Below the pieces are notes generated by a model. The model was not told the origin of the DNA. It saw nothing but the letters and a program-made list of their open reading frames with translations, and did no database searches. A stretch of 64,000 nucleotides of DNA from Gracilibacillus orientalis (GTDB lineage Bacteria; Bacillota; Bacilli; Bacillales; Amphibacillaceae). The position numbers and the translations under genes are program-made. Shown here piece by piece: positions 34,372 to 37,294 of this stretch (its first letter is position 1; each line of letters opens with the position of its first letter). The DNA lies in the NCBI RefSeq assembly GCF_900114645.1, contig NZ_FOTR01000002.1, forward strand, positions 124,001 through 188,000, read 5' to 3'.

Positions 34372-34420
34372 CAGAAGTAAATAAAAAATACCTCAGCTGG
34401 CTTACCCATTTAAAAGGAAA

Positions 34421-34458
34421 GCTAACAAAATCGCCTCAAAGATCTTGTTAGCCTTTTT
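34421..34458. terminator. Terminator between the MerR and NhaC-family genes
   Basis: Arms GCTAACAA (34421-34428) and TTGTTAGC (34445-34452), followed on the plus strand by CTTTTTAC. It serves the plus-strand regulator gene and lies between convergent genes. Confidence 0.72.
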
Positions 34459-34486: not shown

Positions 34487-35782
34487 TTATGAATTACTTT
34501 TAAACCTTGGAAATCCAATCAAAATCGCGACAATGCCACAAATACCAAGTAAGATCGGATAGAAGGAATATGGCATGATACTTAATGGAGATATTGACGC
34601 AAGACCCGCAACGGCTAGCATCTGGCCTCCATATGGCACGACACCCTGCCAGCACGCAGCAAAAACATCAAGGATACTGGCTGACTTTCTCGGATCAACT
34701 TGATATTCACTAGCAATATTTTTAGCTAACGGACCAGTCATAATGATCGAGATCGTGTTATTGGCTGTACTGATATCTGCGATGCTGACAAGTCCAGCGA
34801 TACCGAATTCAGCACCTTTTTTCGATTTAATCCGACTTGTAACAAAGTTTAATAGATAATCGATTCCACCATTGTACTGGATAATGCCAATCATTCCACC
34901 GATAAACAAGGCAACAATCGCGATGTCTTCCATATTGATAATCCCCTGAGAAGCAGCCTGAATTAAACTTGTTCCCGTATAGGATCCATCGATTAAGCCA
35001 ATTACGCCAGCGAAAATGATTCCGCCAGTTAATACTATCAGCACATTCACTCCTAAGATCGCCACTATTAGTACAGTAAGGTATGGTAATACTTTTACAA
35101 TATTATACGAATATTCCTCCAGTACATTGACATGGCTAGCTGACGTAATAATCCATAAAATAATGGCAGTAACGATCGCACCAGGAAGTACAATAAAAAA
35201 GTTCGTTTTAAACTTATCACTCATCGACGTATTTTGTGTTCGTGCAGAGGCAATGGTTGTATCAGAAATCATCGACAGGTTATCACCAAACATTGCCCCA
35301 CCAATAACTGTTGCCATTGCTAACGCCATTGGAATATCTGTTTGTTCCGCAATTCCTATGCCAATGGGTGCAAGTGCTACTACTGTACCCATGGAAGTTC
35401 CCATCGTAATGGAAATAAAACAACCAATAAGAAACAGTCCTACCATCAATAGACTAGCAGGAAGAAGTGAAAGCCCAAGGTTTACTGTTGCATCAACAGC
35501 ACCCATTCCCTTTGCAACTTCTGAGAAAGCCCCTGCCAACACAAAAATAATAACCATTAAAATAATATTTTCATGCCCAACGCCTTTCGTAAACACTTCT
35601 ATTTTTTTTGATAATTTTTCTTTATGATTCATTGCAATGGCTACCGCTGAAGCGATGATAACTGCGACATTAATAGGCATATTGGAAAAATCTTGTGTAA
35701 CAATTCCTGTCCCGATAAATAATAAAACAAATATAAGTAATGGTAATAGTGCGAATGCATTACCTTTTGATTGTTGTGTCAT
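34487..35782 (-). CDS. NhaC-family transporter under SAM-riboswitch control (candidate methionine-related transporter)
   Basis: A 431-residue transporter of the NhaC ion-transporter superfamily, with about 11-12 membrane segments. Family motifs: GTSMGTVVALAPIGIGIA, GGAMFGDNLSMISDTT and SIADISTANNT. It lies 18 bp after the short-chain dehydrogenase gene and is transcribed with it behind a SAM-I riboswitch. NhaC-superfamily members under S-box control have been proposed by comparative genomics to be methionine transporters (MetT), so a methionine or methylthio-compound substrate is more likely than simple Na+/H+ exchange (inference). Confidence 0.85.
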   Translation of the reverse strand: MTQQSKGNAFALLPLLIFVLLFIGTGIVTQDFSNMPINVAVIIASAVAIAMNHKEKLSKKIEVFTKGVGHENIILMVIIFVLAGAFSEVAKGMGAVDATVNLGLSLLPASLLMVGLFLIGCFISITMGTSMGTVVALAPIGIGIAEQTDIPMALAMATVIGGAMFGDNLSMISDTTIASARTQNTSMSDKFKTNFFIVLPGAIVTAIILWIITSASHVNVLEEYSYNIVKVLPYLTVLIVAILGVNVLIVLTGGIIFAGVIGLIDGSYTGTSLIQAASQGIINMEDIAIVALFIGGMIGIIQYNGGIDYLLNFVTSRIKSKKGAEFGIAGLVSIADISTANNTISIIMTGPLAKNIASEYQVDPRKSASILDVFAACWQGVVPYGGQMLAVAGLASISPLSIMPYSFYPILLGICGIVAILIGFPRFKSNS

Positions 35783-35800: not shown

Positions 35801-36565
35801 TTAGTGCATGGTCATGCCGCCAGTAACATTGATGGCTTGACCTGTCATATAATCTGTAAATGTGGAAGCAAGGAAAATGACGACATATGCGACATCTTCT
35901 GGTGTTCCGGTTCTGCCAAGTGGCACTTGTGAAAAATCCTCTTCCTTAATAGCTTCTTCATCCAACCCTCTTAATTTTCCACCAATAGCTCGTTCCCTAT
36001 GTTTCATGCTTGTTTCTACAATTCCTGGACAAACAGCATTGACGTTAATCTGGTCTTGTGCAAGCTCCAATGCCATCACTTTGGTCAATCCAATTACTGC
36101 ATGTTTGGAAGCAACATAACTGCCCATTAAGCGATAACCATTTTTGCCAGCTTGTGAAGCTATATTAATAATTTTCCCGCCATCACCCTGATTCTTCATT
36201 TTTTTTACAACGGCCTGACTGCATAATTGGACACCTTTCACATTTACCTCCATGGTCTTGTCCCAATCTTCTTCTTTGATGTCGACAAAATAGTCCATTG
36301 TAGAAATTCCAGCATTATTTACTAAAATATCAACTTTGCCAAAATATGAAATTACCTGTTCAACCATCTTTTCCACATCGTTTTTATCAGTGACGTCCGC
36401 CTGAATAAATAGCAAATCGTCTTCATTGTTTTGGTGATTCTTATGAACATCAACAACTGCAACTTTTGCCTTTGAGTATCGTAAAGCATCAGCAATAGAC
36501 TTACCGATTCCATTTGCACCGCCTGTTACTATTGCAACTTTTTCTGTAAGATCCATGGTAAGCAT
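35801..36565 (-). CDS. Short-chain dehydrogenase/reductase under SAM-riboswitch control
   Basis: A 254-residue SDR with a full set of motifs: TGGANGIG at 14-21, NNAG at 83-86, Ser137, Tyr150 and Lys154 (YVASK). Asp39 at the end of beta-2 points to NAD rather than NADP. The ATG at 36563-36565 is chosen because AAAGGAGG stands upstream; the longer frame to 36619 reads back into the riboswitch terminator. First gene of a two-gene operon. The riboswitch suggests a reaction linked to methionine or SAM supply, for example on a hydroxy/keto acid pair (inference). Confidence 0.9.
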   Translation of the reverse strand: MLTMDLTEKVAIVTGGANGIGKSIADALRYSKAKVAVVDVHKNHQNNEDDLLFIQADVTDKNDVEKMVEQVISYFGKVDILVNNAGISTMDYFVDIKEEDWDKTMEVNVKGVQLCSQAVVKKMKNQGDGGKIINIASQAGKNGYRLMGSYVASKHAVIGLTKVMALELAQDQINVNAVCPGIVETSMKHRERAIGGKLRGLDEEAIKEEDFSQVPLGRTGTPEDVAYVVIFLASTFTDYMTGQAINVTGGMTMH

Positions 36566-36582
36566 GGGGAAACCTCCTTTTA

Positions 36583-36741
36583 AAATAAAAAAAACCACTT
36601 CCGGGTAAGAAGAGGCCAATAGATTATTTATTCTCTCTTCTTATCTGTTAGCTACACACTACTGGAATTGGCACATTGCTCATTGGAGCTGTTGCCGAGG
36701 ATTCATAGGGCCAGTCCCTCCACCTCTCTGGATAAGAATAT
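36583..36741 (-). ncRNA. SAM-I riboswitch (S-box) with terminator
   Basis: Read on the minus strand from 36741: P1 5' strand ATTCTTATC, then AGAGAGGTGGAGGGACTGG, CCCTATGAA, CCTCGGCAAC, GTGCCAATTCC and the P1 3' strand GATAAGAAG. These are the conserved S-box blocks in the right order. The aptamer spans about 36636-36741. A terminator follows: CCTCTTC and GAAGTGG (one mismatch) then eight T. TAAGAAGAG of the P1 3' strand (36643-36635) is complementary over 9 nt to CTCTTCTTA of the terminator's left arm (36614-36606), forming the antiterminator. SAM binding should therefore switch the operon off. Confidence 0.95.
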
Positions 36742-36880: not shown

Positions 36881-37294
36881 TTAATCTATCATTTTCCTTA
36901 ACTTATTAGTAGCTTCAGAAGAAACTGAATAAATATTATTCTCATTACCTACATAGATAAATAGACTTTCTTCACCTTCATCTCCTAATATAAGATGTAG
37001 GCCGTGAGTGGCATCATTTTCATAACGCACTAATATATCATAGGTTGGTGTTTCATATGTTGCATCTTGATTTGTAACCTCTGTATTTTTAAAAATCTCT
37101 TCAAATTCCGCTATAATTTCATCTTGGTTAAAAGAAGCAAAGTAGTTTTCATTAAGCCCCCCGTAACCTTTAGATTCAGAAATTGATATACTCGATACGT
37201 TATCTAACAACATCATTTCTTTACTTTGAGATTGACAACCAATTAAGGTTAAAGCAGAAAAAAATAAAAGTAATAATAAAAATATATTTCTCAT
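36881..37294 (-). CDS. Putative lipoprotein
   Basis: A 137-residue protein with a lipoprotein signal peptide: basic start, Leu/Phe core and lipobox LTLIGC with Cys20. The mature part is about 118 residues, acidic and beta-rich. I do not recognise the family. Single gene downstream of nothing, convergent with no neighbour. Confidence 0.72.
   Translation of the reverse strand: MRNIFLLLLLFFSALTLIGCQSQSKEMMLLDNVSSISISESKGYGGLNENYFASFNQDEIIAEFEEIFKNTEVTNQDATYETPTYDILVRYENDATHGLHLILGDEGEESLFIYVGNENNIYSVSSEATNKLRKMID

Follow-up and report, generated by a model that had tools for sequence, protein, structure and literature searches.

In the standard OFF mechanism of the S-box (SAM-I) riboswitch, SAM-bound P1 retains the left half of the antiterminator and the terminator forms, and without SAM the antiterminator disrupts the terminator. 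Rodionov's 2004 study is said to be the main comparative study of methionine regulation in Gram-positive bacteria. Excerpts of PMC2940859 present MetT, an NhaC-superfamily protein encoded behind S-boxes, as a probable methionine transporter in Clostridium perfringens (metT, cpe2317) and elsewhere; the statement in the initial annotation of the present locus, that NhaC proteins behind S-boxes have been proposed to transport methionine, is thus in print for C. perfringens metT. Excerpts of PMC11477304 report control of luxS by a SAM-I riboswitch in Clostridioides difficile, and production of homocysteine and 4,5-dihydroxy-2,3-pentanedione (DPD) by LuxS. QQ-2, a short-chain dehydrogenase/reductase (SDR) of metagenomic origin, oxidizes NADH weakly with an analogue of AI-2 (6 mU/mg), the product from AI-2 not being analysable by its authors, according to excerpts of PMC4942472.

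The operon considered here lies on the minus strand of the window, the whole 64-kb stretch of DNA that was analysed, and consists of the following features:

36638..36738, minus strand: SAM-I (S-box) riboswitch aptamer (RF00162, 91.6 bits, E 1.4e-20, model positions 1-108 of 108)
36635..36643, minus strand: left half of the antiterminator, TAAGAAGAG, overlapping the 3' strand of P1 and exactly complementary over 9 nt to CTCTTCTTA
36606..36614, minus strand: right half of the antiterminator, CTCTTCTTA, inside the 5' arm of the terminator
36587..36617, minus strand: intrinsic terminator, a hairpin (36617-36593) with one U-U mismatch (GGCC-U-CUUCU / GGAAG-U-GGUU) and T8 at 36594-36587
36573..36580, minus strand: ribosome-binding site AAAGGAGG, 7 nt before the SDR start codon (ATG at 36565)
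35801..36565, minus strand: SDR of 254 aa (PF13561/PF00106), classical and of NAD type (D39), with catalytic residues S137-Y150-K154
34487..35782, minus strand: NhaC-superfamily transporter of 431 aa, a MetT-like probable methionine importer (PF03553, 82.5 bits against a cut-off of 23)
34418..34455, minus strand: terminator-like hairpin closing the operon, with a 15-pair stem (weak: 2 such sites in the scan against 1.9 expected)

The initial annotation read the leader as a SAM-I riboswitch, and the covariance-model check bears this out: the aptamer is full length and scores more than the curated RF00162 gathering threshold of 44.4 bits, and RF00162 is the sole Rfam family to reach threshold in the window. 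The complement noted between P1 and the terminator arm is exact over its 9 nt (TAAGAAGAG/CTCTTCTTA), making P1, antiterminator and terminator mutually exclusive; the order along the minus strand is aptamer, TAAGAAGAG, CTCTTCTTA within the terminator 5' arm, T8, AAAGGAGG and the ATG at 36565. The hairpin has a predicted energy of -8.0 kcal/mol, and a generic terminator scan of the window missed it (36587-36617, minus strand). Folding energy was set aside as evidence for the leader, shuffled sequences being equally good (z -0.46; 65 of 200 shuffles at least equally stable). What supports the riboswitch is thus the covariance model together with the conserved, recurrent layout. Leaders were compared for the window and 32 of the 36 S-box-bearing loci of named species described below, leaving out three loci whose S-box is on the opposite strand (L113, L164 and L166) and one in which it follows the SDR gene (L151), and retaining L148 with some doubt. 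As raw tallies with no shuffled control, all 32 other leaders pass a terminator filter that the window's own weaker hairpin fails, and 17 of the 33 leaders, the window's not counted among them, contain an exact antiterminator of at least 7 nt overlapping the terminator 5' arm. No promoter is claimed, a scan of the window returning 10 sites against 9.9 expected by chance; the match at 36793-36765 is at chance level. Upstream of the riboswitch lies an open reading frame of 137 aa (36881-37294, minus strand) with a lipoprotein-like N-terminus, which matches no Pfam family at E 0.001 and an NCBIfam family only below its cut-off.

The two genes are as first described, an SDR (PF13561/PF00106) followed by an NhaC-superfamily protein (PF03553), and the remark that an SDR is not among the standard methionine genes is supported. 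In the family alignment the SDR has the residues of a classical NAD-type enzyme: the TGxxxGIG glycines G15, G19 and G21, D39 (in 77 of 79 rows), N108, S137, Y150 and K154. Among the 25 NCBIfam matches listed of 235, a single one passes its cut-off, that to the generic 'glucose 1-dehydrogenase' subfamily PRK07231 (223.9 against 215 bits), and acetoin reductase, L-iditol dehydrogenase, FabG and 3-hydroxybutyrate dehydrogenase all fall below theirs; automatic annotation could therefore mislabel the protein 'glucose 1-dehydrogenase', the sole passing match among those shown. An AlphaFold model has a mean pLDDT of 80, with values below 50 beside the active site (residues 139-145, 147-149 and also 252-254), and was used for fold comparison alone because of this weakness around the active site. 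The closest solved structures include quinuclidinone reductase, sorbitol/polyol dehydrogenases, meso-2,3-butanediol dehydrogenase, a putative diacetyl reductase and FabG proteins; the structure search gives identities of 34-43% for 3ak4/3wds, 1geg, 1k2w and 4e6p, and 3ak4 (3-quinuclidinone reductase) is the best sequence match among solved structures.

The transporter was surveyed in 159 genomes of the same family, an orthologue being defined by at least 47% identity (the next NhaC proteins are 24-35% identical). Fifty-one genomes, the window's own included, contain one, and the loci of all 50 others were scanned. An S-box precedes the orthologue in 40 of the 51; an SDR gene stands between the S-box and the NhaC gene in 20 of these 40 and is absent from the other 20, and none of the 11 orthologue loci without an S-box has an SDR. 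This NhaC family is thus commonly under S-box control, with the SDR as an extra element. LuxS directly follows NhaC in 12 of the 51 loci, in one of which (L058) there is no SDR, and in two others (L056 and L057) the layout is S-box, MetE-like gene, SDR, NhaC and LuxS. At the level of the order, an orthologue of at least 50% identity was found in 46 of 150 genomes. One orthologue (G043) contains in-frame stops, another (G029) lies on a 3.2-kb contig that does not cover its downstream region, and the NhaC gene of Sporosarcina thermotolerans is split into two reading frames (L132:5787-6965). Gaps of about 330, 520 and 590 nt with no clear gene separate SDR from NhaC in L062, L066 and L070, respectively, and in L060 (1411-1804) divergent S-boxes stand back to back, facing a MetE-like gene and an SDR-NhaC-LuxS operon.

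From its sequence and setting, the NhaC-superfamily protein is inferred to import methionine or a close analogue in the manner of MetT. That it is instead an ion antiporter or carries some other solute is improbable: PF03553 by itself specifies no solute, and excerpts of PMC11477304 place a lysine riboswitch before an NhaC protein of unassigned function in C. difficile, but the S-box precedes 40 of the 51 orthologues, the methionine ABC importer MetNIQ takes the place of NhaC beside the same SDR family, and the window protein scores only 74.4 bits against the cut-off of 370 for the NhaC antiporter equivalog (TIGR00931).

The SDR itself belongs to a family that, judged by profile scores, is distinct, sharply bounded and patchy. 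Searched with a profile built from 12 orthologues, the 159 same-family genomes yield 20 members at 419 bits or more, the next protein scoring 220 bits; at the level of the class, 6 of 398 genomes, the window's own included, have a member at E 1e-85, a threshold at which distant members may be missed. All 20 same-family members adjoin an NhaC orthologue, and all 20 genomes carry LuxS; more widely, SDR and LuxS occur together in 48 of 49 genomes, the exception being that of the metagenome-assembled locus L153. Since 141 of the 159 genomes have LuxS in any case, bare co-occurrence counted for little, and adjacency was taken as the evidence.

A scan of named species, which required the peptide SQAGKNGY or MGSYVASK, yielded 157 confirmed candidates, the nearest relatives of the window locus being Gracilibacillus species. 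The best 80, carrying 35 genus labels (some species kept apart), were used for a tblastn tally of neighbours in flanks of up to 5 kb, which replaced a listing of open reading frames affected by antisense artefacts in high-GC loci. Among these best 80 of 157, LuxS is the most frequent non-transporter neighbour (58 loci), alongside MetQ (42), MetN (33), NhaC (32), MetI (31) and an aminotransferase (28), the MetN assignments in L111 and L115 (43% identity) probably being other ABC ATPases. Rarer neighbours in the same 80 are Cys/Met PLP enzymes (9), MetE-like proteins (8), YbdH-like dehydrogenases (8), Pfs, BisC-family and fRMsr-like proteins (6 each), and isomerase-like proteins and 2-hydroxyacid dehydrogenases (3 each). 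The fRMsr-like group (C20) is so called on our own presumption, by eye; it matches no Pfam family at E 1e-10 and no NCBIfam family at E 1e-20. The BisC match (950 against 1017.55 bits) and the YbdH/PRK10586 match (275.7 against 429) are below their cut-offs. A methionine importer (NhaC or MetN/I/Q) is present in 73 of the best 80 loci, and an importer or LuxS in 75; L138, L150, L153, L164 and L166 have neither. On the same strand and within 300 nt of the SDR are LuxS in 37 of these loci, NhaC in 30, MetQ in 10 and the aminotransferase in 6.

The layouts of these loci differ between groups. In Enterobacterales the order is MetQ-MetN-MetI-LuxS-SDR, mostly followed by a BisC-family gene; in Paenibacillus and Cohnella it is MetN-MetI-LuxS-SDR-MetQ-Pfs, or LuxS-SDR divergent from MetQ-aminotransferase-MetN-MetI; in Sporolactobacillus it is mostly aminotransferase-SDR-YbdH-MetN-MetI-MetQ-LuxS; in Desemzia it is MetE-LuxS-SDR-MetQ, preceded by a T-box in the single locus that was tested; and the smallest unit, MetQ-LuxS-SDR, is that of Companilactobacillus, with no aminotransferase detected in any of its 7 loci. 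No LuxS was detected nearby in 22 of the best 80 loci, and Halobacillus loci have Cys/Met PLP enzymes in its place. An S-box was found in 36 of the 80, all of them from Bacillaceae genera, Sporolactobacillus or the Bacillota metagenome-assembled genome of L153. A model built mostly from Bacillaceae S-boxes, whose misses elsewhere are accordingly soft, found none in L116, L121, L132 and L141, nor in the loci of Paenibacillus, Cohnella, Enterobacterales, Companilactobacillus, Clostridium, Desemzia and Trichococcus; Rfam agreed on the absence in L116, L121, L133, L138, L156, L160, L161, L171 and L174.

The LuxS partners are of two types, assigned by sequence motif: 43 SDR-linked loci have type II and 15 have type I, plus one fragment, and the cross-type pairs compared are 36-44% identical. 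Five motifs, which we take to be those of the metal site and catalysis, are intact in 87 of 88 LuxS sequences, the exception being the incomplete fragment in L141. Since two LuxS types only 36-44% identical accompany the SDR, either the link formed repeatedly or one partner replaced another; a quick SDR tree, made without bootstrap, has at least 7 changes of the LuxS link and 4 of the NhaC link. Six genomes, read as those of five Oceanobacillus and one Virgibacillus (G064, G076, G084, G085, G087 and G155), have no LuxS other than that of the SDR-NhaC operon. By contrast, each of the 7 enterobacterial genomes that were searched (those of L155, L156, L157, L159, L165, L170 and L177; L175 was outside the search) has two LuxS matches; 5 of these 7 loci, and also L175, have the BisC-family gene after the SDR. 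The SDR-linked enterobacterial LuxS is type II, as in Paenibacillus and Cohnella, and of three non-linked copies (L194-L196) two have a gamma-proteobacterial motif and one is unclassed. Because these enterobacterial genomes thus have a second LuxS, and the SDR-linked one is of the Paenibacillus/Cohnella type, the sequences suggest lateral transfer of the module. Searches for the Kosakonia SDR gene in plasmids (tblastn, E 1e-60) and for the Kosakonia LuxS-SDR stretch in Escherichia coli (blastn, E 1e-5) returned nothing. Taken with the importers, this distribution makes it highly probable that the SDR belongs to a LuxS/methionine module.

The initial annotation had suggested that the SDR may act, for example, on a hydroxy or oxo acid taken up by the transporter. 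The comparison of operon content across relatives speaks against that coupling: 20 of the 40 S-box NhaC loci do without an SDR, elsewhere the SDR accompanies MetNIQ, and LuxS is near it in 58 of the best 80 of 157 loci. What holds of the original interpretation is the S-box OFF switch, the link to methionine uptake and the non-standard character of the SDR; what finds no support in that form is the action of the SDR on an acid brought in by this transporter. The substrate class as such stays alive, though unlikely, through the aminotransferase found in 28 of the 80 loci.

In its fuller form, which we likewise consider unlikely, this alternative has the SDR interconvert 4-methylthio-2-oxobutyrate (MTOB) and 2-hydroxy-4-methylthiobutyrate, the aminotransferase then making methionine from imported hydroxy- or oxo-methionine. 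The one aminotransferase tested scores 518.7 bits against the cut-off of 494 for the 'transaminase' subfamily PRK08068, a group that presumably holds MtnE-like MTOB aminotransferases; a YbdH/GldA-like Fe-dehydrogenase is found in 8 of the 80 loci, an S-box that is ON at low SAM suits methionine-making, and the family has invariant charged residues. However, the aminotransferase is within 300 nt on the same strand in only 6 loci, standing otherwise mostly in a MetQ-aminotransferase-MetN-MetI unit or divergently; it occurs in just 1 of the 32 NhaC loci (L116) and in none of the 7 Companilactobacillus loci; the closest solved relatives of the SDR act on ketones, diketones, polyols and acyl-ACP; and the host already has two S-box-linked FMN hydroxyacid enzymes. 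MTOB or hydroxymethionine was set aside as first choice, LuxS adjacency favouring DPD.

The host genome (4.6 Mb) has 13 SAM-I riboswitches. Some exceptions aside, the genes behind the other 12 resemble, by eye and by Pfam for ten proteins, those of sulfate assimilation, of methionine synthesis and of two MetNIQ systems. Two PF01070 FMN-dependent alpha-hydroxyacid enzymes are encoded behind S-boxes (L097:3482-4597 and L096:6956-7873, both minus strand), one of them as the fourth gene of a MetQ-MetN-MetI operon; these may be better candidates than the SDR for oxidation of hydroxymethionine. Outside the window, tandem SAM-I riboswitches (L094:4193-4501, minus strand, corresponding to host C19:33192-33500) precede a thiolase and an acetoacetate-CoA ligase, which is not a usual methionine operon; the ligase scores over its NCBIfam cut-off and the thiolase over that of a generic acetyl-CoA acyltransferase.

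A second alternative concerns thio-sugars. In Clostridium pascui and C. peptidivorans the SDR is preceded by genes for an FGGY kinase, a class II aldolase, a 2-hydroxyacid dehydrogenase, a methionine-gamma-lyase-type enzyme and an isomerase-like protein, and S. thermotolerans (L132) has a similar set plus NhaC; in all three the SDR follows a xylose-isomerase-like TIM barrel. The FGGY kinase is below the NCBIfam cut-offs for xylulokinase (275.5 against 380 bits) and AI-2 kinase (166.7 against 528). These clusters (L138:1-4980, L150 and L132) might be involved in degrading a sulfur amino acid that is linked to a sugar. The SDR could act on the ribose of a thio-sugar, either before LuxS or alongside it, and help to free homocysteine or methylthio groups; S-ribosylhomocysteine, methylthioribose and an imported relative are the candidates. 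Besides the TIM barrel, lyase-type enzyme, dehydrogenase and kinase of the three clusters and the class II aldolase of Clostridium, the occurrence of Pfs in 6 and LuxS in 58 of the 80 loci fits this proposal, and a substrate bearing an amino acid would be in keeping with the charged residues that are invariant; yet the LuxS reaction itself needs no redox step, and we know of no member of the SDR family that has been characterized by experiment. We regard a thio-sugar substrate as rather improbable.

The reading that we prefer, with a probability of roughly 0.4, is that the SDR is an NAD(H)-dependent DPD reductase. DPD is proposed because homocysteine, the other LuxS product, needs no SDR, because DPD is a dicarbonyl, because enzymes acting on ketones, diketones and polyols are among the nearest solved SDRs, and because of QQ-2. 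In the proposed mechanism, plentiful SAM would shut off a two-gene operon of the methionine regulon through the SAM-I riboswitch; the NhaC-superfamily protein would import methionine or a close analogue; the SDR, joined with LuxS and a methionine importer, would form a methionine-recycling module, reducing the carbonyl by-product of LuxS, DPD (the precursor of AI-2), with NAD(H); and this reduction would remove a reactive dicarbonyl and lower AI-2 output while homocysteine is converted to methionine. LuxS adjacency, the involvement of two LuxS types, the aminotransferase-free MetQ-LuxS-SDR unit and the presence in 6 of 80 loci of Pfs, whose step comes just ahead of that of LuxS, are points in its favour.

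Several observations weigh against DPD. The pairing at the window is drawn from relatives, the host LuxS being elsewhere (C14:431457), away from the SDR operon; 22 of the 80 loci have no LuxS nearby, and the aminotransferase (28 of 80) and YbdH-like dehydrogenase (8 of 80) fit an oxo or hydroxy acid. Since LuxS is common (141 of 159 genomes) and the SDR patchy (6 of 398), cells are not generally in need of this enzyme to dispose of DPD. K141, K188, R192, R199, E209 and D210 are among the residues invariant in 79 full-length members (an alignment that omits the incomplete rows L141 and L173, and an invariance partly biased by the required SQAGKNGY or MGSYVASK peptide), and such residues may point to a substrate that carries charge, which DPD does not. 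The activity of QQ-2 is low. We know of no DPD reductase and of no established family with that activity, and the fate of DPD in cells without an Lsr-type system is, to our knowledge, largely unsettled. On balance we infer a ranking of substrates with DPD first and thio-sugars and MTOB next. The broader claim, of a dedicated DPD reductase that is a LuxS partner common to Firmicutes and Enterobacterales, removes the AI-2 precursor and is set by a SAM riboswitch in Bacillaceae, is more doubtful.

Finally, the SDR might be a reductase of broad specificity that methionine operons carry along, without a dedicated function in the pathway. SDRs are often promiscuous, the host genome has 28 SDR matches and the family is patchy; but in Firmicutes and Enterobacterales it is found together with NhaC, MetNIQ and two LuxS types, a pattern that would hardly arise without selection, and we think this explanation very improbable. 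If DPD reduction is correct, the SAM riboswitch would tie the AI-2 output of the cell to its SAM status. The recurrent LuxS-SDR-importer module singles out one candidate enzyme and bears on whether metabolism sets AI-2 levels.

Compared with described systems, the riboswitch and the transporter are ordinary. The SDR does recur as a partner of LuxS and of methionine importers, and in the literature covered this partnership is undescribed. 3-Quinuclidinone reductase (3ak4/3wds), meso-2,3-butanediol dehydrogenase (1geg) and the sorbitol dehydrogenases (1k2w, 4e6p) share its fold; in the residue-level alignment, made with 3ak4, the ER and LRG motifs are common to both proteins, whereas the SQAGKNGY and MK blocks differ. 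QQ-2 is, like the window protein, an SDR, and oxidizes NADH with an AI-2 analogue; according to excerpts of PMC4942472 it is weakly active and resembles 3-ketoacyl-ACP reductases. The RNA shows no noticeable difference from other RF00162 S-boxes, having a full aptamer over threshold and a transcription-termination platform. The luxS of C. difficile, as excerpts of PMC11477304 present it, resembles the window operon in being a methionine-recycling gene behind a SAM-I riboswitch, and differs in the SDR partner: in the titles and opening lines of abstracts of the open-access literature, we found no report of such a partner, nor of an SDR with LuxS, a SAM riboswitch or S-ribosylhomocysteine, which falls short of proof of novelty. 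With MetT (C. perfringens cpe2317 and others, in excerpts of PMC2940859) the window protein has in common the NhaC superfamily and an S-box leader, a likeness at the level of the superfamily; the window operon differs in that an SDR gene precedes the transporter, and in 12 of the 51 orthologue loci LuxS follows it.
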